Notes under the pieces: generated by a model
Told to the model about the DNA's origin: nothing
Database searches by the model: none
Seen by the model: only the letters and a program-made list of their open reading frames with translations
Made by a program: the position numbers and the translations under genes
DNA from: a virus
DNA length: 42,104 bases
Strand: one strand, 5' to 3'
Virus record (IMG/VR): IMGVR_UViG_3300048833_000123
Location: 1-42,104 of that record
Part shown: in pieces, positions 1 through 9,877 of the stretch
Position numbering within the stretch: the stretch's first letter is position 1
How the letters are laid out: each line of letters begins with the position of its first letter

Positions 1-1
1 G

Positions 2-196
2 CTTGCGTCGGCCGATGTCGCCGACGCGCGCCGCCTGAATCGCGCCGCCATCGCGCACGCGCGCCGCGCCAACAATTCCGCCGGGGAATACTCGCGCCAT
101 CGTTGGGATGATGCGACGCTCGCGGCGCGGGAATTGCGCGATGCTCGCATGGAACGCGCGCGGCGCACGCTTGGCCGCATGAAGGGGGCGCGCTAA
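2..196 (+). CDS. 3' end of an unknown small protein (partial)
   Basis: The open frame enters from the left edge and ends at TAA 194-196, giving 64 residues of C-terminus. It is rich in Arg and Ala and looks like a charged helix, with residues such as NNSAGEYSRHRWDDATLAARE. The stop overlaps the next ATG (TAATG), as elsewhere in this operon, which supports it being a real gene. No family is recognised. The start lies outside the window. Confidence 0.6.
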   Translation, partial: LASADVADARRLNRAAIAHARRANNSAGEYSRHRWDDATLAARELRDARMERARRTLGRMKGAR

Positions 197-420
197 TGCT
201 CACTGAATTCATCACGACGAAGCGCGCCGCGATTGCGGCCGTCCGCGCGGAAGCGGACTATTTGATAGATCAAGCTGCGCGCCGTGCGCGTGGCGCTGAT
301 CGCGGCGCCTGGCGCGACGACGTGCGCGCCGTTGATCGTCAGCCGCATAACACAATCGCAAAGCAGGTCGCGCAATCCGTGGCCGTTGCTTTCGAGCTGT
401 CCGCCCGTTTCTCTAACTGA
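196..420 (+). CDS. Unknown small protein, 74 aa
   Basis: The ATG shares its A with the upstream TAA, indicating translational coupling. The product is a small, mostly helical, basic protein (MLTEFITTKRAAIAAVRAE at the start) with no membrane segment and no Cys pairs. No family is recognised. It sits in the packed rightward operon of 1-4933 that also carries other small unknown proteins, typical of early or accessory phage genes. The gene call rests on spacing and frame continuity rather than homology. Confidence 0.6.
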   Translation: MLTEFITTKRAAIAAVRAEADYLIDQAARRARGADRGAWRDDVRAVDRQPHNTIAKQVAQSVAVAFELSARFSN

Positions 421-435
421 AAAGGAATTTTCAAT

Positions 436-855
436 ATGTGCACTGTAGACATTACCGCCGCGCCTGCCCTGGAGCATGACGCGATGATGCTTGCGCGTTT
501 CGGGTGCAAGGTTTCGCCGAATGGATACCTGGAGCGCGCGATTCTGTGGAACCTTTGCGCGCACCTGGCGGCGCGCGGTTTCCTGCCGTTCCGAATCAAT
601 GACGGCGACGAAATGCCGCGCGTTTCGAGCGCGAAGGAAGTTCTAGAACTCGCGTTTAACCTGGACGAAGTTAGCGTTAGGTTTCGCAAAGGCAAGCGCG
701 GCGCGGAGCACGGCGTTCTAGTGATGATTGGCGAAGGCGATACGCTCATATCGGATTGGAACTATAACGACGGCGACGGCTTCAATGCCGCTATGGAAAG
801 CTTTGACCCGTTCGCCATCGCGCCCGCTTTGCTGGTGCGCGGCGCTACCGCCTGA
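436..855 (+). CDS. Unknown protein, 139 aa
   Basis: The ATG at 436 follows an AAAGGAA Shine-Dalgarno sequence with a usable spacer, 15 bases after the previous stop. The soluble product begins MCTVDITAAPALEHDAMM and has an acidic C-terminal half (SDWNYNDGDGF). No domain is recognised. After this gene comes a 77-base gap holding a perfect hairpin (865-894) before the operon continues. Confidence 0.7.
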   Translation: MCTVDITAAPALEHDAMMLARFGCKVSPNGYLERAILWNLCAHLAARGFLPFRINDGDEMPRVSSAKEVLELAFNLDEVSVRFRKGKRGAEHGVLVMIGEGDTLISDWNYNDGDGFNAAMESFDPFAIAPALLVRGATA

Positions 856-864
856 ATAACAGGT

Positions 865-894
865 AATGCGCGCCCCGCACCTGGTGCGCGCATT
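865..894 (+). other. Perfect 9-bp hairpin between two early genes
   Basis: AATGCGCGC (865-873) pairs with GCGCGCATT (886-894) around a 12-base loop that contains one CCTGG motif. No T-run follows, so it is unlikely to be an intrinsic terminator; an RNA-processing or mRNA-stability element is possible. It lies in the only real gap inside the left operon. Confidence 0.45.
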
Positions 895-932
895 GCCGGC
901 AATTCCGCCGGGTTAGTTGAAAGGGTTTCGCC

Positions 933-1082
933 ATGCGCCGTTATCTCTTTGTCTCGAATGCTTGCCTTCCCGTCGTCGTCTTCGCCGAAGACAAGCGCGC
1001 CGCGCGTGCATACGTGCGCGAGCTTTTGGGCTTCGCACATGATGCGCCGTTGCCGCGTCATGTCGTCGTGTCGGTGGCCTGA
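933..1082 (+). CDS. Unknown small protein, 49 aa
   Basis: This short frame begins MRRYLFVSNACLPVVVFAED and ends at TGA 1080-1082. A GAAAGGG Shine-Dalgarno sequence lies 6-8 bases before the ATG. The N-terminal beta-strand-like pattern followed by a basic helix (KRAARAYVRELLGF) looks like a small soluble domain. No family is recognised. It fills what would otherwise be a gap before the next gene, whose best start overlaps its 3' end. Confidence 0.6.
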   Translation: MRRYLFVSNACLPVVVFAEDKRAARAYVRELLGFAHDAPLPRHVVVSVA

Positions 1083-1368
1083 CGTGCGCGCCTTCCTGGC
1101 TTCTTTCCTGGCCCTGGCGCCCGTGCACGCGTCGCGCCTGGTGATCGCACGCCGCGACATTCCGCGCGCCCTGGTGAACGGCCGCGCGCAGTCCTGGCGC
1201 GAGCGCTTGAACCGCGCGGCGTTCGCGGCGCCGTCTCGCGTTGTCTTCCTGGCGCCCGACCTGGAGCACGTGCGCGCATTGCGCGAGCGCGCTATCCGTT
1301 GCGAAGTTTACGCGGAACGCGCAGGCACCACGGGCCGCGCGTCTTTCAACCTGGAGAACGCCGCATGA
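1060..1368 (+). CDS. Unknown basic protein, about 102 aa
   Basis: The frame ends at TGA 1366-1368, overlapping the next ATG (ATGA). The start is uncertain. ATG 1060 overlaps the upstream gene by 23 bases; GTG 1084 lies just after the upstream stop and would give a 94-residue product. Neither has a strong Shine-Dalgarno sequence. The sequence is Arg- and Ala-rich with a hydrophobic stretch near the N-terminus (FLASFLALAPV) followed by a basic helical region. No family is recognised. Confidence 0.5.
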   Translation: MSSCRWPDVRAFLASFLALAPVHASRLVIARRDIPRALVNGRAQSWRERLNRAAFAAPSRVVFLAPDLEHVRALRERAIRCEVYAERAGTTGRASFNLENAA

Positions 1369-1574
1369 ATTACTTTTCCCGCAAAGCCGCGCACGCTCGC
1401 GCCGCTGATAACCTGGCGGCGTCCATCGTCCGCCGGACGGATGTCGCGAACGCGTACGCCGCGCGCGACATCGCAACGCGTCGCGCGGAACGTCGCGCGG
1501 CTGTTTTGTGTTGCGTCCTGTTCTGCCTGATCGCTGTCGCGCTTTTCCTTTCCGCCACTAATGAGGCCCGCTAA
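1365..1574 (+). CDS. Small single-pass membrane protein, 69 aa
   Basis: The start overlaps the upstream stop (ATGA). A basic, Ala/Arg-rich N-terminal region of about 45 residues precedes one hydrophobic segment at about 46-64 (VLCCVLFCLIAVALFLSA), then a short tail. By the positive-inside rule the basic part should face the cytoplasm. The sequence does not show a function; small inner-membrane proteins in phage early operons are often host-modifying. Downstream coupling is close, with the next ATG 1 base after the TAA. Confidence 0.6.
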   Translation: MNYFSRKAAHARAADNLAASIVRRTDVANAYAARDIATRRAERRAAVLCCVLFCLIAVALFLSATNEAR

Positions 1575-1575
1575 A

Positions 1576-3285
1576 ATGAAAATTGTTCACTCCCCGGATA
1601 TGGTCGCGCACTTGTTCGCCAATCGTTCGCAAGATACGGCGCGCACGTCGTCGCAGAATTTCTATTTCAACGGGCCGAGCCTGTTTTCCTACGGCTCGCA
1701 TTTCATCATCGCGCATTGGCTGGAGACGGGCGCGGGCGCCGTGCTGCTTTGGAATTCCGATAGCTACAGCATCAGCACGTCACGGCATCAAGGCTACGCG
1801 CGCAACGCGTTGACGCGCTACACCTGGGACAACGCGTGGCACATTCCCGGCATCAAAGCGGACGACGTGCGCTCGCCTTATGGCCTGGTCAAGCTTGCCG
1901 CGCGCATGCTCGAAACGGCCGGCGGCAAGTTTGCGGAAGCGGGCAACACGGCGCGCCGCTCCGGAAAGCGTGACGGGCTTTTCAGTGAAGGCATGCGCCG
2001 CGCGGGCATCGCCGACAAGCTGGCGGCGTTCCTGCTCGAAGGCAAAGGCGACGCGGCGGAAGTCTCGAAGGAAACGAAAGCAGCGGCCCGCGCCATCCGC
2101 GCGACCGTTGCGAAACTGCCGGCGGATGCGCTGGGAACGTCGCACGATAACGCCGCCGAGAAAGAGATTTGCAACGCCGCCGCGCGCGTGATCGGCAAAG
2201 AAGAAGCGCGCGAGCGTATCCGCCGCGACGCGGAGCGCGTGCGATGCCTGGTGGATGAAGCGCGCGGGCAGTTTGCCTATTGCGTCGCGTGCGGCATCCT
2301 GGACACGGCCGGAAACTATCGCGGCGGCAATCCGGCATCCGTTGCGACCATGTACCGCCGCGCGAAAGATGCGGCTAACCTGGCGGACCTGGTGAACGGG
2401 CTCGCGAAGCAATTCGCCATCCGCCGTCCTAAGATGCCGGACGCGGCGGCCCTGGTGCGCGAGTATGAAGCCGCGACCATCGCAGCGAGCGCGAAAGAAA
2501 ACGAAGAAGACGCGCGGCGCGAACTGTACCGCGCGGAGCGCGACTATCGGCGCCGCATGCGTCCGGACGGCAAGCGCTCGCGCTACCTGAGGCGCGCGTC
2601 GCGGTGGCTTTCCCGTAGCTTTGACATCCGCGACGAAAGCTCCGGCAGTCTGCCCGCGTGGCTTGTGGAACGCGCGCATAACATCATCGCGCGCGGCAAG
2701 CGCGCCGAGCGTATCGCGTCCGCCGTTGAAGACCTGGCGCACGCCGCCGCGCATGACATCCGGAACGGCGACCGGCACGCGAACGCGGGCGAGATGCGCC
2801 ACGCGGCGCGCGAGTATCGTGAAGCAATCCGCCGCATTGAACGCGGCGCGGCGCACCTGCCGGCCAAGCATCCCGCGTTGCGCGAGCACGCCGCGATGAT
2901 TGCGGGCTTGCCGTCACTGCGCGGAATGCTGGCGCATGCGCTCGCGAGTTTCGCGCAAGAAGACGCCGCGCAAATTGAAGCCTGGCGCGAAGGCAAGCCG
3001 GGCGCGAGCGTTCCGCGCGATGTCGGCCCGCTGTTGCGCCTGGAGCGTTCCGAGATTGTCACGAGCTGGGGCGCACGCGTGCCGGTGGCCGTTGCGCCTG
3101 GCTTGTGGCGCGCAGTGAACGCGGTACGCGCGAGCGGCGCCGCGCAGGAAGTCACGCCGCCGCAACAGGTCGGGAGCTTCCGCCTTGAACGAATCGAAGC
3201 GGACGGCGCGATTGTGGTCGGGTGCCATGTGGTCGCATTCGCCGAGCTGGAGAATATCGCGCGCCGCCTGGAGTACATCGCATGA
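1576..3285 (+). CDS. Large unknown early protein, 569 aa
   Basis: I chose ATG 1576 (MKIVHSPDMVAHLFANRSQD) over ATG 1561 because it starts directly after the upstream stop and behind a GAGG sequence. The first 90 residues (FYFNGPSLFSYGSHFIIAHW, then a VLLWNSDSYSISTSRH region) resemble a domain I remember from many unrelated phages that carries no known function. The remaining 450 residues are largely charged helix with many Arg/Ala/Glu repeats. No nuclease, ATPase or membrane motif is visible. It is the largest gene of the left operon. Confidence 0.75.
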   Translation: MKIVHSPDMVAHLFANRSQDTARTSSQNFYFNGPSLFSYGSHFIIAHWLETGAGAVLLWNSDSYSISTSRHQGYARNALTRYTWDNAWHIPGIKADDVRSPYGLVKLAARMLETAGGKFAEAGNTARRSGKRDGLFSEGMRRAGIADKLAAFLLEGKGDAAEVSKETKAAARAIRATVAKLPADALGTSHDNAAEKEICNAAARVIGKEEARERIRRDAERVRCLVDEARGQFAYCVACGILDTAGNYRGGNPASVATMYRRAKDAANLADLVNGLAKQFAIRRPKMPDAAALVREYEAATIAASAKENEEDARRELYRAERDYRRRMRPDGKRSRYLRRASRWLSRSFDIRDESSGSLPAWLVERAHNIIARGKRAERIASAVEDLAHAAAHDIRNGDRHANAGEMRHAAREYREAIRRIERGAAHLPAKHPALREHAAMIAGLPSLRGMLAHALASFAQEDAAQIEAWREGKPGASVPRDVGPLLRLERSEIVTSWGARVPVAVAPGLWRAVNAVRASGAAQEVTPPQQVGSFRLERIEADGAIVVGCHVVAFAELENIARRLEYIA

Positions 3286-3752
3286 AACTGCATTCAATCA
3301 ACACTGCGCAAGGCGTTTACGTGATGCCGTGCGGCGGCGGTTTTTCCTGCTACGGGTTTGACGTGCTCGACAGGAAGGCGCGCGGCGTTGTGAACTGGCT
3401 GGAGCGGGAAGCCGCGCCCGGTGATGAACTGCAACGCGTGCGCCTTATGCTGGACGCAATCGGCGCGCCTGGCACGGCCGCACATTTCCAAGCGTGCGCG
3501 GATGTCATGGAATACGGCGCCGCGTTCAACACGCGCACGGGCAAGCGTTGCGGCGCGGAACTGCACCCGCTGCTAGTCGGGCTCGAAGGGCGCCGCGTTG
3601 AATGCGAGCGATACGGCGAGCGGGTGCGCTTCAACGTCGGCAAATCGACTGGCTGGATGCCGTGCCATCTCGCGATTCATAACGCGCGCTCGCATGGCGG
3701 CGATGCCATCAGCGTTTCCGAATCGCTGGCGCGCTTGCGCGTTATCCGTTGA
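3282..3752 (+). CDS. Unknown protein, 156 aa
   Basis: The ATG at 3282 overlaps the upstream TGA (ATGA). The soluble product begins MKLHSINTAQGVYVMPCGGG and holds five Cys, but they are not spaced as an obvious zinc site. No family is recognised. It is followed by a 16-base spacer holding a GGAG sequence for the next gene. Confidence 0.65.
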   Translation: MKLHSINTAQGVYVMPCGGGFSCYGFDVLDRKARGVVNWLEREAAPGDELQRVRLMLDAIGAPGTAAHFQACADVMEYGAAFNTRTGKRCGAELHPLLVGLEGRRVECERYGERVRFNVGKSTGWMPCHLAIHNARSHGGDAISVSESLARLRVIR

Positions 3753-3768
3753 ACCTGGAGCCCATGAC

Positions 3769-4434
3769 ATGAAAAAGATTCCCGCCGATTTTCCCGTGCG
3801 CCCGTTGACGCGTGCGCAAGCCGCAAAGAATCCGAACGCGTGCACGTGCGGCGCGTGCGGCCGTTCCTGGGATGATTCAATCGCGACTAGCTACACTCCA
3901 GCGCCCGGCGGCCGTTGCCCGTTCGAGTATTACCACGCGGAACCGCGCAAGCCGCGCACGTCGCGCCCCCTGGTGCTGGTGAACAGAGACGGCCGATTGT
4001 CGCGCTACGGTCTCGCGTGCGGCTATGTCGACACGTATCCCGGCGGCGTGTTGGTTTGCATGCCGTCCCCTTCCGCTGGCGTCGTCCTGGTGAAAGACGG
4101 CAACGGACAAAACCGCGTGCCTGCCGTGCTCTACTCCGGAAAGAGTTTGACGGCCGCGCGTGCTGTCGCGTTCAAGGCGTCGCGCCCGTTCGCTACGCCG
4201 CGCGATTCTTTCTGGCTTTGCCTGGAGCGTGACACGCTCGAACAATCGAGCCCGCACGCATCGCTAAAACTTGCGCGCGATGAATTCGAGCGATACGCGC
4301 GCCCGCTTGAACGCATCGGGCAAATGCTAACGGCAAGCGTGCACCTGGCGCCGACACGTAAAGAGATCGCGGAATATCCGGATTTTGTTTTGAGTGTCGG
4401 GCCGCGTGGCGGAATCAAGGTAGAGCGCGCATGA
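3769..4434 (+). CDS. Unknown protein with Cys-rich N-terminus, 221 aa
   Basis: The ATG at 3769 (MKKIPADFPVRPLTRAQAAK) has GGAG about 8 bases upstream. Near residues 24-50 a CTCGACGRSW stretch followed by a further Cys (GGRCPFEYYH) resembles a small zinc-binding knuckle. The remainder, about 65-200, alternates strand and helix (RPLVLVNRDGRLSRYGLACG). No catalytic motif is recognised. A zinc-binding role is inferred from Cys spacing only. The 3' end overlaps the next gene (ATGA). Confidence 0.65.
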   Translation: MKKIPADFPVRPLTRAQAAKNPNACTCGACGRSWDDSIATSYTPAPGGRCPFEYYHAEPRKPRTSRPLVLVNRDGRLSRYGLACGYVDTYPGGVLVCMPSPSAGVVLVKDGNGQNRVPAVLYSGKSLTAARAVAFKASRPFATPRDSFWLCLERDTLEQSSPHASLKLARDEFERYARPLERIGQMLTASVHLAPTRKEIAEYPDFVLSVGPRGGIKVERA

Positions 4435-4670
4435 GCGGCCGTGATCGCGTGGTGTACGTCAAGCGCGCAGACGGCAGCGATAGCGACGCGGCGCCCTACC
4501 GCGAAGACTGGCGCCCGCAACGCAAGCGCGGAAGCATTAGCGCTTGTCGGTTCGTCGTCTTCTACGCGGGCCGGTGGCGTCGCCTTTATTCCGATTGCGA
4601 AGCGTTTGGCGTTCCGCATTTCATCCACGCTAACGGCCGGCGCCTGCTGGTGACGGGGGTTAGCCCATGA
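4431..4670 (+). CDS. Unknown small basic protein, 79 aa
   Basis: It is translationally coupled at both ends by ATGA overlaps. The product is short and basic (MSGRDRVVYVKRADGSDSDA at the start), with aromatic beta-like stretches (CRFVVFYAGRWRRLYSD). No known motif is seen. The call rests on operon continuity. Confidence 0.6.
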   Translation: MSGRDRVVYVKRADGSDSDAAPYREDWRPQRKRGSISACRFVVFYAGRWRRLYSDCEAFGVPHFIHANGRRLLVTGVSP

Positions 4671-4933
4671 GGCGCACGGATGCGGAGATGCGCGACGCTA
4701 TCGCGCGCAATGCGCTAGCGGATTACCTGGTGCGCGGCGTTGCGTGGGCGTGCTGGCTCGCGCTTGTCGCCTTCCTGGTGATTCCGCTCGCCTGGCTTGC
4801 GTTCCTGGAATGCGGCGCCGTCGTCGGCCTGGTAATCCTGGCGCTACTGCTGGGCACCACATGGCACGTTAAGCCGCACGGGAAGAGTTACGCGGCGCGC
4901 GTGCGCGACATCGGGCGCGACTATCCCGACTAG
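4667..4933 (+). CDS. Small two-pass membrane protein, 88 aa
   Basis: This is the last gene of the left operon, coupled to the previous one by an ATGA overlap. A charged N-terminus of about 22 residues precedes two hydrophobic segments at about 26-47 (ACWLALVAFLVIPLAWLAF) and 50-65 (AVVGLVILALLLG), then a basic tail. It is likely an inner-membrane protein with both ends in the cytoplasm. No family is recognised. An intrinsic terminator follows 27 bases after the stop. Confidence 0.65.
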   Translation: MRRTDAEMRDAIARNALADYLVRGVAWACWLALVAFLVIPLAWLAFLECGAVVGLVILALLLGTTWHVKPHGKSYAARVRDIGRDYPD

Positions 4934-4960
4934 CAAGGCGCGCACGCTCGCAACGCATAC

Positions 4961-4990
4961 AAGCCCGGCCACGTGCCGGGCTTTTCTTTT
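4961..4990 (+). terminator. Intrinsic terminator of the left operon
   Basis: AAGCCCGGC (4961-4969) pairs with GCCGGGCTT (4975-4983) around a 5-base loop, and a T-rich run (TTTTCTTTT, shared with the stem end) follows. It lies 27 bases after the last gene of the left operon and just before the repeat array. Confidence 0.85.
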
Positions 4991-4998
4991 GCGCGGCT

Positions 4999-5637
4999 TC
5001 CTGGCGCGTCCTGGTGCGCCCTGGTGCCGTTCGCGTCCTGGTGATGCGTTGCACCTGGTGCCGGATTAATTCGAGCTGTCCCCCCATGCCCTAATCCGCT
5101 AGGCCTACATTCCGGCACGCGTGCGCCTGGTGATGCGTGCGCCCTGGTGCGCGCCCTGGTGACGCCTGGCGCGCTTGCCTGGAGATCGGCCGCACCTGGT
5201 GACGTGGTGCGCCTGGTGCGCGTCCTGGTGCACCTGGTGCGCCTGTCCTGGTGCTGGCCTGGTGATGCGTGCACCTGGCGCAATTCGCGCACCTGGTCGC
5301 GCCTGGTGCGCTTCCTGGTCTTGCCCTGGTGATCGCTGGCGCCTGGCGTCCTGGTCGCCTGGTGCGCGTCCTGGTGCACCTGGTGCGCGCCCTGGTGCCG
5401 TCCTGGTAATGCGTGCACCTGGTCGCCTGGTGTTACCTGGTGCGCTACCTGGTAGCGCTTAGGCCTGGCGTCCTGGTTAATCGCGCGCTTCCTGGTGCCG
5501 GCCTGGCGTCGCGCGTTTCTTCCCTGGAGTGTTGCCGGAAATAGGACGATAGACGGGGGCGCGGCTTGGCCTGGTGATGGCGTCCCGTGGTGGCCTGGTG
5601 CAATGCCTGGCATTTATTCCCCTATCCCTGGCCGCGT
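4999..5637 (+). repeat. Dense one-orientation CCTGG(TG) motif array
   Basis: By hand count this 640-base stretch has about 40 copies of CCTGG on the plus strand, about 24 of them CCTGGTG and 8 CCTGGTGCGC, and none in the opposite orientation (CCAGG). Spacers are irregular, mostly 3-8 bases. Longer units recur: a 32-base stretch at 5211-5242 is identical to 5357-5388, and variants of CCTGGTGATGCGTGCACCTGG-type units occur near 5037, 5117, 5258 and 5402. No credible gene is present on either strand. Function is unknown; it could be a polar recognition signal, a protein-binding array or a structured transcript. Confidence 0.85.
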
Positions 5638-5911
5638 ATATGCGCGCGTGCGGGGTTTAATTAATTAATTGCTTATCGTGCCTGCCCTATGCGGCGTTGT
5701 GGCCGTGCGCGCGTTCCTGCGCGGCGCTAGGGCACGTCAAAGCTACCTCGCGTCGAGTAAAAAGGTACTCCGGCCGGGGCGCGCGAGGGGCGCGGGGGGC
5801 GCCGAGCCCGGTAGACGCATAATTTTCGAATTTTTTACGGCTCAGTCTCCAATCGGCATTTAATTCCCGCCGAATTGCGTCGTTTCGCGCAACAATCCAA
5901 TTAATTCGGCC
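5638..5911. other. Intergenic stretch without a supported gene
   Basis: This stretch has AT-rich blocks (a TTAATTAATTAATT run at 5657-5670, AATTAATT at 5899-5906) embedded in GC-rich sequence. A 64-codon frame at 5669-5863 has no Shine-Dalgarno sequence and no protein-like features. Together with the flanking repeats it makes a gene-free interval of about 1.5 kb. Confidence 0.5.
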
Positions 5912-6224
5912 TGTGACACTTGTGACACTTGCGAATCGGCCTAGTGTCACAAGGAAGTCGTTGAAAGTGGGGGGATTTCCGGTGCTTGTGACACTTGTGA
6001 CACTTGTGACACTACTTTTCTCTTACGTGCGAAAGAAAAAACGAATGTCCCAATTAACTCCAAGGTATTTACTGAAGAGGCAAAAACACTTTCTCACGTA
6101 CGGTAGAAGTAGTGTCACAAGTGTCACAAGTGTCACAAGGTATTATTTCCTTATGCGAATCAACGACATCCTTGTGACACTTAGGGGGTCCGCAAGTGTC
6201 ACAAAACGGCTTCCAAGTGTCACA
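5912..6224. repeat. Iteron cluster: 12 copies of TGTGACACT
   Basis: Exact 9-bp copies on the plus strand begin at 5912, 5921, 5987, 5996, 6005 and 6173. Reverse-complement copies begin at 5943, 6111, 6120, 6129, 6195 and 6216. Tandem groups abut with no spacer (period 9). The core GTGACAC is itself nearly palindromic. Iterated sites in a gene-poor, AT-richer region next to a primase-helicase module suggest a replication origin or a multi-site operator; that role is inferred. Frames through the repeats read VTLVTL or SVTSVT and are not proteins. Confidence 0.85.
5985..6139. repeat. Perfect 30-bp inverted repeat built from iterons
   Basis: The 30 bases at 5985-6014 (three tandem iterons plus flanks) are the exact reverse complement of 6110-6139, separated by 95 bp of AT-richer DNA. 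The arms could extrude a cruciform, or load a protein in mirror-image arrays on either side of the central segment, as in some initiator-bound origins. The central 95 bp has no other obvious repeat. Confidence 0.8.
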
Positions 6225-6343
6225 AGAGCCCGATTTAATTGATTTCGGCCATTTTCGGCACCAATCAGCGGCAATTAATTAGTTCGAGGGGTTTTCCGCC
6301 GCCTGGCCTTCGAGGGCCAAAACGGCCCCCAGCAATTAATCCG

Positions 6344-6372
6344 TTGACCCGCGACGCGGCCAGGCGCACAAT
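6344..6372 (+). promoter_or_regulatory. Probable sigma70-type promoter for the 6408 gene pair
   Basis: TTGACC (6344-6349) and CACAAT (6367-6372) are separated by 17 bp and lie 36 bases upstream of the ATG at 6408. The match is 5/6 and 4/6 to consensus. AATTAAT blocks also occur just upstream (6273, 6334) and over the -10 region. The downstream unit ends at the terminator at 7335. Confidence 0.55.
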
Positions 6373-6407
6373 TAATGCGGCGATTTCCGCCGCCAGGAGT
6401 AATCGAA

Positions 6408-6653
6408 ATGCCAGCCACAGGAATGAAAGACGGTAGTGTTTGGGTCAGCCTCAATGACGACCCTTCGATTTACCTCGATCTCGACCCGGCTTCGCGCCGC
6501 GTCTATAAATTCACCCCGCGCGAGATGGAGCAGTACGTCGCGGCCGGCCAACAGCGCCGGTACGCGATCATCGGCCGCAAGAAGGCGATGGGCGAGTTTG
6601 TGATGCGCGCCGACTTCACTGCCGCACTGTTCGAGAAAGGAGAACTGCTATGA
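6408..6653 (+). CDS. Unknown small protein, 81 aa
   Basis: The ATG at 6408 has AGGAG 8 bases upstream, so I prefer it to the upstream in-frame start at 6375. The product (MPATGMKDGSVWVSLNDDPS at the start) looks like a small globular domain; a RRYAIIGRKKAMGEFV stretch lies near the middle. No family is recognised. The next gene overlaps by 4 bases (ATGA), so the two form an operon running from the 6344 promoter to the bidirectional terminator at 7335. Confidence 0.7.
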   Translation: MPATGMKDGSVWVSLNDDPSIYLDLDPASRRVYKFTPREMEQYVAAGQQRRYAIIGRKKAMGEFVMRADFTAALFEKGELL

Positions 6654-7318
6654 GCCGCTGTAAGGCCTACCAGATGAGCGACCAGATGCGTTGCGATCTG
6701 TGCAACCTCACATGGGACATCAATGACCCCGAACCTCCGACCTGCGGCGTCGCGACGATTCCGCTCGGGGGGTTTATTCCGGCCCTGCCTGAAACCCACG
6801 TCGATGAAGAGCTGCGCGGCTTGATCTCCGGGGTTGAAGACGGCGAGCGCGTCGCGGCTTCGAGACTGCGCCGCGTGTACCGCAACGCGCATCCTAAGAT
6901 CGCAGAAGCCGCGAAGGTCTTTGAACATGGCGGCCACGTGCTTTACACCGATGCAGACCAGGACGCGCCACTGTGCGTGCGTGACGGCAACGGCCAGGTC
7001 GTGCTTGCGCTGTGCAAGAACTGCAACCAAGGCGAAGCGGACCTGGCTTCGGTCTGCCCGAACCCGCCGAAGCTGCCGAGCACCTTTTCCGCGCGCGGCC
7101 TGGCGATCATCGCGCAGATCGGCAGCGCGCTCGACGCGCCCACGGAAACGCCGGCTCCAGTTTTGCAGTGCCTCGGTGTCTCGCGCGTGTTCGGCACCGG
7201 CACGCAGCACTGGAACACGCCACAGCCCGAGCTTCGGTTGATCTTCAGCCGCGTGCCGACCGACGCGGAGTTGCAGCACTTCCACGATCTCATCCGGCAC
7301 AACACGCCGAAGCGCTGA
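6650..7318 (+). CDS. Cys-rich putative zinc-binding protein, 222 aa
   Basis: The ATG overlaps the previous stop, with AAAGGAG upstream. The N-terminus carries a CDLCNLTWDINDPEPPTC pattern (CxxC plus a later Cys) like a small zinc ribbon that I recall from phage proteins of unknown role. A second CKNCNQGEADL pair lies near residues 122-132. The C-terminal part (SRVFGTGTQHWNTPQPELRL) is unassigned. No enzymatic motif is visible. It probably acts as a small nucleic-acid- or protein-binding factor; that is an inference from Cys pairs. Confidence 0.65.
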   Translation: MSRCKAYQMSDQMRCDLCNLTWDINDPEPPTCGVATIPLGGFIPALPETHVDEELRGLISGVEDGERVAASRLRRVYRNAHPKIAEAAKVFEHGGHVLYTDADQDAPLCVRDGNGQVVLALCKNCNQGEADLASVCPNPPKLPSTFSARGLAIIAQIGSALDAPTETPAPVLQCLGVSRVFGTGTQHWNTPQPELRLIFSRVPTDAELQHFHDLIRHNTPKR

Positions 7319-7375: not shown

Positions 7376-9877
7376 TTAGAGCGACAGTTCGAAGAAGCGG
7401 TCGAGCCAACCCTGGAACGTCGGCTTGCCGATCTTGTCCGGGTGTCGCGTCCAGTAGCGGCACATTTTCCCTTCCTGGTTGCGCGCACGCCCCGCGTAGA
7501 CGAAGCCACGGTAGCTCAGGAACGAGCTGAGCTTGGCATCGGCAGGGAACGGGATGGACTGGTCCGTCGCCAGCTCGCGGAGCCTGGAGACGTTGAGCAC
7601 GTACTCGGTGACTTCCGGGTCGATGGCGCTTTGCAGCAGTTCTTCCAGCTCGTCGTTGTCGCTGCCGCGCGCCAGCTCGCCCATGCGGTCCTTCGCGTCG
7701 GTGTGCGGCGCGTGGCCGTCCGGGTTGAACTCTTCGTGCAGCTTGTAGTCCTCCAGCCACTCGCGGATAGCGCCTGGGTGATAGGCGATAGCGTTGAACA
7801 GGTCGTCGAAGTAGTCGGGGTTCGCGGCGCGGAACTTGCCGATCATCTCCTTGGTCTGGAAGTAGGTCGAGACCACGAAGTAACGGCGGTCCGCGTCGTA
7901 CATCGGCAGCGCGTCGGCGTGGTTGGTCAAGATCATCAGGTTCAGCACGCTCGGGATGTTGTAGGTGTCCTGGTGCATGCGCCGAATGTCTACCACGTCG
8001 TTCGTGATGTAGGGCTTGAGCTTGTCCATCACCGCGTAGCGGGTCGCACCGTGGATGCGCGCTTCTTCCAGCACAACGATCTTCCGGTTCTCGAAGAAGC
8101 TCGTGTACTTTTCCTCCAGCGCTTGCGCGGAGATCGACGACACGTTGTTCTTGCCGAGAATCGCCATGAGCATTTCGCCGATGAAGCCTTTACCGGCGCC
8201 GTCGACACCCTGGATGACCGGAGCCCAACGAATCTTCTTGTCCATGCGCTTGATCGTGTACGCGAGCCAGGACAGCAGCAGCTCGCGCTCACGCTCGACC
8301 GGATAGGAAATCTCGAAGTGCTTCTGCACGATCTCGATGGCTCGGCGGTCCTTCTTGGACAGCTTCTCCGGCGTCGGCGCCATGTCGTTGCCGTTGAAGA
8401 GGTTCACGTGCTGGTTGCCGCACCAGGTCACGACGCGCTCGGCGCCCGGCAGGTAGACGTAGCCGCTGACGACCGGCACCTGGTACACGTTGAGCGCGAG
8501 CTGCGACGCCTGCTGCTCGGGCACCGCGTCCATGCTGGCCCGGTCCTTCTTCGACAGCAGATGGCGGTTGTTTCGACCATTGAACGCGCGCTCGCTCAGT
8601 GCCAGGCGGCTGTCCATGAGGAAGAACTGCTCTTCCTTGTCGACGTACACAACGTTGTCGCACCAGTGCGGCACGTCCTTGTAGTCGAAGTCGGACTTGT
8701 AGCCTTCGTTGATGGCCTTGCGCACCACGTCGATGCGGATGCCCTTGCCGGTCAGCTCGCGCACGCGCTTGACGATGGATGTCGCGAGCAGATCGACCTG
8801 GTAGTCGCTCTCCAGCACGCGGCCCCACTTCGCGGCCAACGTGCCAAGCAGCTCGACCTCGCTCGTGCACTCGTCGATCTTGCGCTGGATTTTGCTGAAG
8901 GTTTCCTGCGCGTGCGCGACGCGGTGTTCCTTGGCCTTCTTCAGCAGCGTTGCGACGGTCGTGACGTTCCGGCCGATCTCGTCTGCGAAGGAGTTCCACT
9001 TGCGCTCCAGCGTGTCGGCGTCGTAGTTGCTCGCCCCTTCCGACCACTCGTGCCACAGCGCCAGGCCGTCCTCGTCACCGTCGAACTGGTGATGAAGCGC
9101 CATGCCGACCTTGAGCCAGTCGTCGTACTCTTCGTTGCCAGGCACCCACTTCAGGACTTCGCGAAGCTGCTCGACGGTGATGTTGTCCAGCGGCGCCTTG
9201 AACGCGAGCAGCGCTTGGTCGTTGTCGCTGTCGATCTCGCTGTCGGTGTGCGTGTTGCGGTTGTTCTGCGCCGAGTGCGACTTCAGGGTCCAGCCGTTGC
9301 GCGACGCTTCCATCTTGAACACGTCGAACAGCGTCTTTATGTGATCGGCGGTGATCTCGGGAAGGTCTTCCACCTTGACGCCGATGGGCGACTCTTCGAG
9401 CGAACGCCAGCGGTACGCACGCTTCGTATCCGGGTGGATGCCGATGCCGACGAACTGCTGCCCGTCGCCGAGCACTTCAATGGAGTGCTCAACGCCGTCG
9501 AGGTCGACGAACGTGATTTTCTGCTTCGAGAACGGCGCGTCGGTGCGGTAGATCAGCATCGTCTTCGGCGCCTGGCCGACGCGCGTGATCGTCTTGCCGA
9601 TGATCTCCTGCGCATGGTGTGCCATGAGCGCAGACATCTTTTCGTCGTAGATGTCGATGTCGACCGCAGGCGTCAACCGCGTGTGGAAGCCGATGTTGCC
9701 GTGCTTGTACTTTCCCTCGGACCACGCGCGCACCATGTTCGGGTTCGCGCGCAGGCTTTGCCACTTCGGTTCGACCGGACCTTTCTTCCCGCTCGGAATC
9801 GGCAGGATGGAGTATCCGTTCTCAAGCAACTTCGCACCGTACTTACGGAGCAAGCTGCCCGGCTGTTTGGTAGCCAT
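7376..9877 (-). CDS. Primase-helicase (PrimPol / PriCT-2 / SF3-type helicase)
   Basis: This 833-residue protein has three parts. Residues 1-200 look like a bifunctional primase-polymerase domain with a DID motif (D73-D75 in AVDIDIYDE) and a later GIGIHP stretch near 144-149. Residues about 233-318 match the PriCT-2 pattern (EEYDDWLKVGMALHHQFDG). Residues about 520-700 are an SF3/DUF5906-type helicase with Walker A GVDGAGKG (557-564) and Walker B IVVLEE (600-605). It should unwind the phage origin and prime synthesis for the PolA polymerase at 12940. It is in the only leftward unit and starts 5 bases after the regulator's stop, with its Shine-Dalgarno sequence inside that gene's end. Confidence 0.92.
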   Translation of the reverse strand: MATKQPGSLLRKYGAKLLENGYSILPIPSGKKGPVEPKWQSLRANPNMVRAWSEGKYKHGNIGFHTRLTPAVDIDIYDEKMSALMAHHAQEIIGKTITRVGQAPKTMLIYRTDAPFSKQKITFVDLDGVEHSIEVLGDGQQFVGIGIHPDTKRAYRWRSLEESPIGVKVEDLPEITADHIKTLFDVFKMEASRNGWTLKSHSAQNNRNTHTDSEIDSDNDQALLAFKAPLDNITVEQLREVLKWVPGNEEYDDWLKVGMALHHQFDGDEDGLALWHEWSEGASNYDADTLERKWNSFADEIGRNVTTVATLLKKAKEHRVAHAQETFSKIQRKIDECTSEVELLGTLAAKWGRVLESDYQVDLLATSIVKRVRELTGKGIRIDVVRKAINEGYKSDFDYKDVPHWCDNVVYVDKEEQFFLMDSRLALSERAFNGRNNRHLLSKKDRASMDAVPEQQASQLALNVYQVPVVSGYVYLPGAERVVTWCGNQHVNLFNGNDMAPTPEKLSKKDRRAIEIVQKHFEISYPVERERELLLSWLAYTIKRMDKKIRWAPVIQGVDGAGKGFIGEMLMAILGKNNVSSISAQALEEKYTSFFENRKIVVLEEARIHGATRYAVMDKLKPYITNDVVDIRRMHQDTYNIPSVLNLMILTNHADALPMYDADRRYFVVSTYFQTKEMIGKFRAANPDYFDDLFNAIAYHPGAIREWLEDYKLHEEFNPDGHAPHTDAKDRMGELARGSDNDELEELLQSAIDPEVTEYVLNVSRLRELATDQSIPFPADAKLSSFLSYRGFVYAGRARNQEGKMCRYWTRHPDKIGKPTFQGWLDRFFELSL

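Follow-up and report, generated by a model that had tools for sequence, protein, structure and literature searches.

The cosQ and cosB R sites of phage lambda are short and few, KOPS are short polar motifs that are read on DNA over long distances, and the Chi site of Escherichia coli is active when the enzyme arrives from the 3' side of the motif. In lambda, terminase holds one cos end and RecBCD enters at the other. Lambdoid phages that carry a recombinase and lack a RecBCD inhibitor have been found to concentrate Chi toward cos (Bobay et al. 2013, PMC3784561). Few bacteria have a known Chi motif, and attempts to predict one from host genomes were unsuccessful for most Proteobacteria (PMC8022716).

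We analysed a 42,104-base metagenomic IMG/VR fragment (the window) that carries a gene-free array of CCTGG motifs, all in one orientation, beside its predicted cos. Like the lambdoid Chi sites, this is a short polar motif directed toward a packaging site, in a phage with its own recombinase and no RecBCD inhibitor. Unlike them, it has a pentamer core in place of the octamer GCTGGTGG, which is absent from the array, its reader enzyme is putative, and it occurs in tens of copies in a gene-free array with strict polarity over kilobases. With E. coli Chi and the Chi motifs of 5-8 bases of other bacteria (PMC8022716) it shares polarity, a G-rich sequence and, probably, a single-stranded reading; CTGGTG is common to 24 of the 41 array copies, and the motif faces the DNA end in the orientation that is active for Chi. 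The resemblance to E. coli Chi proposed in the first-pass annotation extends to CTGGTG only, since CCTGGTGG is absent from the array (positions 1-5790 hold one copy, outside the array, and no GCTGGTGG). In two Xanthomonadaceae genomes, which may not be the host's, CCTGG was neither over-represented nor skewed to the leading strand, unlike a bacterial Chi. Lambda cosQ and cosB likewise lie beside cos and depend on orientation, but the signal described here extends over 4-7 kb, and relatives with a similar terminase (AhaSv, Salvo) do not have it. KOPS-like sequences are similar in being short polar motifs that act on DNA over a long range, but the CCTGG domain is bounded by cos and a divergent promoter and has no known translocase partner. 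No description of such an element, or of cos repeats in Casjensviridae, was found in open-access papers, and Rfam gave no match at curated thresholds.

The window belongs to a siphophage of the family Casjensviridae, as judged by its terminase, primase, cos core and family gene order. The nearest named phages are Clavibacter phage 33, Stenotrophomonas phages Suzuki and Bhz60, and Xanthomonas phage AhaSv; a search for close relatives with the primase sequence alone returned no match. The record of Clavibacter phage 33 (OR548257.1) is close to Stenotrophomonas and Xanthomonas phages, and its Gram-positive host label is surprising. The IMG/VR isolate contig G103 (55,601 bases), which we take to be Xylella phage Salvo, is called the Salvo-like contig below. 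Genes of IMG/VR contigs were called by a simple script, promoters are consensus matches and cos was predicted from homology.

The array stands to the left of the predicted cos, its end about 130 bases from the cos core (Table 1). The record of Clavibacter phage 33 ends in sequence that matches DNA from about 5753 to 5836, and the core is common to Suzuki, AhaSv, G103, phage Chi and Seifer, where it lies beside annotated or inferred cos ends; a cos annotation stands at the homologous place in Suzuki and Seifer. By analogy with these phages an overhang is predicted just to the right of the core. The predicted position of cos thus places the array at one end of the linear genome. The gene order runs from the cos-ward early operon through its terminator, the array, cos and the GTGACACTT repeats to the primase, and this order recurs in Suzuki, whose array is thinner. 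The last gene of the operon is 49-53% identical to its positional counterpart in Suzuki, Bhz60, phage 33 and AhaSv. The GTGACACTT and GTGACAGT repeats between cos and primase (also at L003 180-620 and at the end of L002) are iteron-like or operator-like.

Table 1. Features at and around the CCTGG array, in window coordinates
Feature	Position	Strand	Basis or match
Rest of polar domain: 41 further CCTGG, no CCAGG, in the cos-ward early operon	308..4841	+	Counts, codon shuffles
Last gene of cos-ward operon, 88 aa, phrog_29730, function unknown	4667..4933	+	Sequence match
Intrinsic-terminator-like hairpin with T tail, operon/array boundary	4961..4991	+	Same place in Suzuki, G120, G113, G127
Gene-free array, 41 CCTGG cores in one orientation, variable spacers	5000..5631	+	Letter counts
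32-base unit, copy 1	5211..5242	+	Exact match to 5357-5388
32-base unit, copy 2	5357..5388	+	Exact match to 5211-5242
Predicted cos: core AAAAAGGTACT at 5759, predicted 12-base overhang GGGGGCGCCGAG at 5795-5806	5759..5806		Homology
GTGACACTT repeats, both orientations, far side of cos	5913..6223		GTGACAGT-type repeats in Suzuki, AhaSv
Primase gene (Prim-Pol, PriCT_2), marker of far side of cos	7376..9877	-	Domain matches

The first-pass annotation had reported roughly 40 one-way CCTGG motifs, 24 of them CCTGGTG, without any CCAGG, together with a repeated 32-base unit. By count, positions 4999-5637 contain 41 CCTGG, 24 CCTGGTG, no CCAGG and no CCTGGTGG, and the repeat is exact. The core is followed by T in 31 copies and by TG in 24. 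The density is also as unusual against a shuffled null as had been supposed: dinucleotide shuffles of the stretch gave a mean of 3.2 CCTGG and a maximum of 10 (n=1000), shuffles of window stretches outside the array gave 0.5 with a maximum of 3, and elsewhere in the record no pentamer exceeded 21 copies in any 640-base window. Cores are 8-24 bases apart, except for two gaps of 47 and 72, and the spacings fall in all three phases (14/10/16). Only six near-miss cores accompany the 41 perfect ones, and the spacers have a T:A ratio of 1.8:1. The array therefore consists of conserved five-base cores within variable spacers and is not a coding repeat, as its irregular spacing in all three phases demonstrates. 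An in-frame repeat protein was ruled out by that spacing and by the lack of Pfam matches among the open frames, including a minus-strand frame at 4930-5613 (227 aa) that is probably open merely because the repeated CACCAGG contains no stop codon. Among the matches listed, most other CCTGGTG-dense viral loci are Pro-Gly repeat genes, in which the spacing is always a multiple of three.

The feature is one-way, as had been claimed, but it is wider than 4999-5637: positions 1-5637 hold 82 CCTGG and no CCAGG, the array being the densest part, and the domain is clipped where the contig is cut at its left end. The same one-way domain occurs in nine other Casjensviridae phages, with 26-57 sites each and one exception in total, and runs from the divergent-promoter region through the cos-ward early operon and its terminator to cos. 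No pentamer is more strand-asymmetric than CCTGG in the array, in the operon of the window or in the 4-5 kb beside cos in Suzuki, Bhz60 and phage 33, and none of these stretches holds a single copy of the complement. More distant IMG/VR relatives, whose large terminase subunits (TerL) are 46-50% identical, also carry the domain, with CCTGG:CCAGG counts of 55:0 in G120, 26:0 in G113 and 29:0 in G119, 57 sites with one exception in G127, and 26 and 27 in a row in G125 and G115. In G120 a further dense array stands immediately ahead of the cos-like end; it is rich in CCTGGTGG, with 23 copies in 600 bases. The window and all relatives agree in how the domain is oriented toward cos and the terminase genes. 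Its far boundary always coincides with, or lies close to, the intergenic region that separates two divergent operons, and this holds for operons of about 4.3 to 7 kb. The comparison with homologous phages that the first-pass annotation had called for thus finds a thinner array in the same place in close homologues and dense ones in distant relatives. Because the same one-way signal stands beside cos in nine relatives, the array is a real, selected DNA signal, and it most likely forms the densest, terminal stretch of a polar motif domain that acts at the DNA level and reaches as far as cos. Only the direction of the central base pair distinguishes CCTGG from CCAGG, so strict polarity argues for reading of one strand.

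Selection can also be seen within genes. In the cos-ward genes of eight phages pooled, 188 CCTGG were observed against 123 from synonymous-codon shuffles, as an earlier, smaller test had also indicated, while the divergent operons showed no excess; two of the eight, G113 and G115, showed no coding excess individually. Over 0-6 kb from cos the excess stays level (O/E 1.39 to 1.73), and it ends at the divergent promoter region. The codon null fails for other pentamers too, CCTGG ranking seventh among them, so it is the strict polarity and the non-coding density that are unique, and not the coding excess alone. The motif is enriched and not merely turned one way, and for this reason evasion of Type III restriction, another early suggestion, found no support. 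As a separate observation, the early operon beside cos has a much weaker codon bias than the rest of the genome (for example, a CAG share of 0.45 vs 0.77) in the window, Suzuki, G113, G120, G127, AhaSv, phage Chi and others. Specific avoidance of CAG codons was considered and rejected, as it falls within this generally weaker bias.

Some relatives have no such motif. Phage Chi has no CCWGG in 59.6 kb, the Salvo-like contig has none and AhaSv has one in 55 kb. CCWGG is all-or-nothing in Casjensviridae, many members having none in tens of kilobases and others 160-400 (loci L131/L133 of phage Chi, L002/L005 of AhaSv, L135/L347 of the Salvo-like contig, L154, L155, L159, L193 and others). Retention did not correlate with a phage cytosine methylase (C5-methylase), and no gene was present in all CCWGG-bearing phages and absent from the CCWGG-free ones. 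In the gene-free zone before cos, the CCWGG-free relatives carry other repeats, CTGCCCGGCCTT in AhaSv and Salvo and TATGG in phage Chi, and TGGYG is polar within this zone in all phages examined. Comparison of these sequences suggests a general slot before cos with a replaceable motif, which argues against a fixed terminase-binding site.

As the best reading, we tentatively propose that the array is made up of Chi-like sites that face the right way for an enzyme of the RecBCD type to meet them after entry at the bare cos end. By analogy with lambda, the left end would be bare once terminase has cut cos and stayed on the other end, or upon entry of linear DNA into the cell. A helicase-nuclease of the host, of RecBCD/AddAB type, may then load at this end and move leftward. 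It would meet CCTGG from the 3' side of the motif, on the strand with its 3' end at cos; the orientation is observed, and recognition is what the model supposes. Many sites in a row could make attenuation and a switch to recombination nearly certain, which would spare the genome and help to form concatemers.

Several observations favour Chi-like sites. CCTGG lies on the + strand with the predicted cos to its right, the array is beside cos, and polarity is strict in the window and nine relatives. The phage encodes a DUF2800 protein (an exonuclease by annotation in relatives) and a ssDNA-binding/annealing protein, and a Gam inhibitor, sought in 20 records, was found in none. The homologous divergent intergenic region of phage Chi contains three GCTGGTGG in the same orientation as the array. 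The codon-shuffle excess seen in cos-ward genes only, the like polarity of DNA ahead of the operon promoter and the looser arrays beyond the family also speak for this reading. Against Chi-like sites, the codon-level excess is no weaker far from cos than close to it, and the CCWGG-free relatives put other repeats in the slot. Enrichment of the known Chi beside cos in enterobacterial relatives was considered and rejected: GCTGGTGG is absent from the 4-5.6 kb beside cos in phage Chi, Seifer and relatives (all enterobacterial records spanning it). A pattern of three CCTGGTG occurs at most once per genome in 99 Xanthomonadaceae genomes. Since the enterobacterial relatives lack the known Chi there, CCTGG shows no skew in the two Xanthomonadaceae genomes and the excess does not fade, a Chi-like role can be held only as a possibility, and we do not file the element as Chi. 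The early idea of a polar signal for recombination, degradation or packaging nevertheless fits best, in that the array abuts cos in what would be the RecBCD-active orientation, and is in part supported.

Similar arrays occur beyond the family. A scan for the motif alone yielded, among the matches listed, three loci (L018, L025 and L103) with no detectable protein similarity to the window phage, each with an irregularly spaced CCTGG-rich stretch after a terminator, which in L018 and L025 lies directly upstream of the gene for the terminase large subunit. Polarity is weaker there: over 4 kb the ratio is about 4:1, and the stretch itself includes some sites facing the other way. These looser arrays upstream of terminase, in phages without protein similarity, point to a host enzyme as the reader, although the cases are few. 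Two other loci were noted: clustered TTAACCAGG repeats with 15 CCAGG vs 3 CCTGG in 600 bases at about 36801-37400 of L364/L365 (G110; GC 45%), and a gene-poor stretch of a short contig, L401 (G135) 6139-6875, which is CCTGG-rich in both orientations and possibly kin to the arrays of unrelated phages.

A packaging signal is an unlikely explanation. Here a translocating terminase would meet the array before the end-of-genome cos and be slowed or alerted for the terminal cut. Lambda cosQ is on the side of cos that corresponds to the array, which abuts cos on the last-packaged side if packaging proceeds as in lambda, and the gene-free slot is conserved in the family. On the other hand, the domain runs for 4-7 kb through genes without fading, AhaSv and Salvo have terminases 69-73% identical and no CCTGG, and similar arrays occur in phages of unrelated gene content.

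An RNA signal, with CCUGG in the early transcript and its post-terminator tail binding a protein for antitermination, stability or titration, is rather unlikely. It was favoured while the domain seemed to equal the transcript, and was lowered once the promoters had been located. The domain coincides with one operon, whatever its length, and in the folded window RNA the CC of the core pairs with GG, the central U is 90% unpaired and the sense fold has a z of -5.5; in G127, folding was not below shuffles, and the array lies beyond a terminator. In six relatives the operon has a sigma-70-like promoter 80-110 bases before the first gene, and cos-ward CCTGG continue up to about 530 bases upstream of it. 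Including two sites in Bhz60, the orientation count upstream is 36:3, or 36:9 with six opposite sites in or next to the repeated element at the far side. The motif is thus not confined to the detected transcript, and a structured transcript, which the first-pass annotation had offered as a cause, becomes unlikely. Sites upstream of the promoter make DNA the likelier carrier and the simpler account, the other being an extra promoter that the scan may have missed.

A replication signal, in which CTG-containing sites would lie on the lagging-strand template from an origin at divergent AACCGG-N10-AAGTAAG repeats to cos, is improbable: the domain begins at this iteron-like element, which recurs throughout the family, and keeps its polarity from end to end, but that polarity stops at cos, which forks on a circle would pass, and no mirror domain lies across the element, itself only a putative origin. 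The AACCGG-N10-AAGTAAG repeats stand in 2-5 copies beside divergent promoters in G113, G120, G127, G125, G115 and phage Chi (53640-53900) as a possible origin or operator, and in phage Chi the one-way GCTGGTGG lie among or just after them. A functionless by-product of strand-biased composition and local duplication is highly improbable, for although the array strand is rich in T and poor in A over the 400 bases immediately left of cos in all phages examined and a 32-base duplication lies inside the array, the spacer bias is far too small for 41:0, perfect cores far outnumber near-misses, the count exceeds codon shuffles, and the array recurs with unrelated spacers in many phages.

Overall, our analyses raise the possibility, still a tentative one, of a new class of polar, DNA-level end signal: Casjensviridae may mark the kilobases before cos with one-way CCTGG, read single-stranded by a helicase-nuclease or a packaging motor with an undescribed motif, and unrelated phages may carry a looser form. 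If the motif is Chi-like, these phages concentrate it where it can be read directly, and it becomes a candidate that can be tested in hosts without a known Chi. If it is a packaging or replication signal instead, it would be an undescribed, kilobase-scale element of cos. Whichever reading holds, the array is compact enough to be moved or inverted as a module and assayed.
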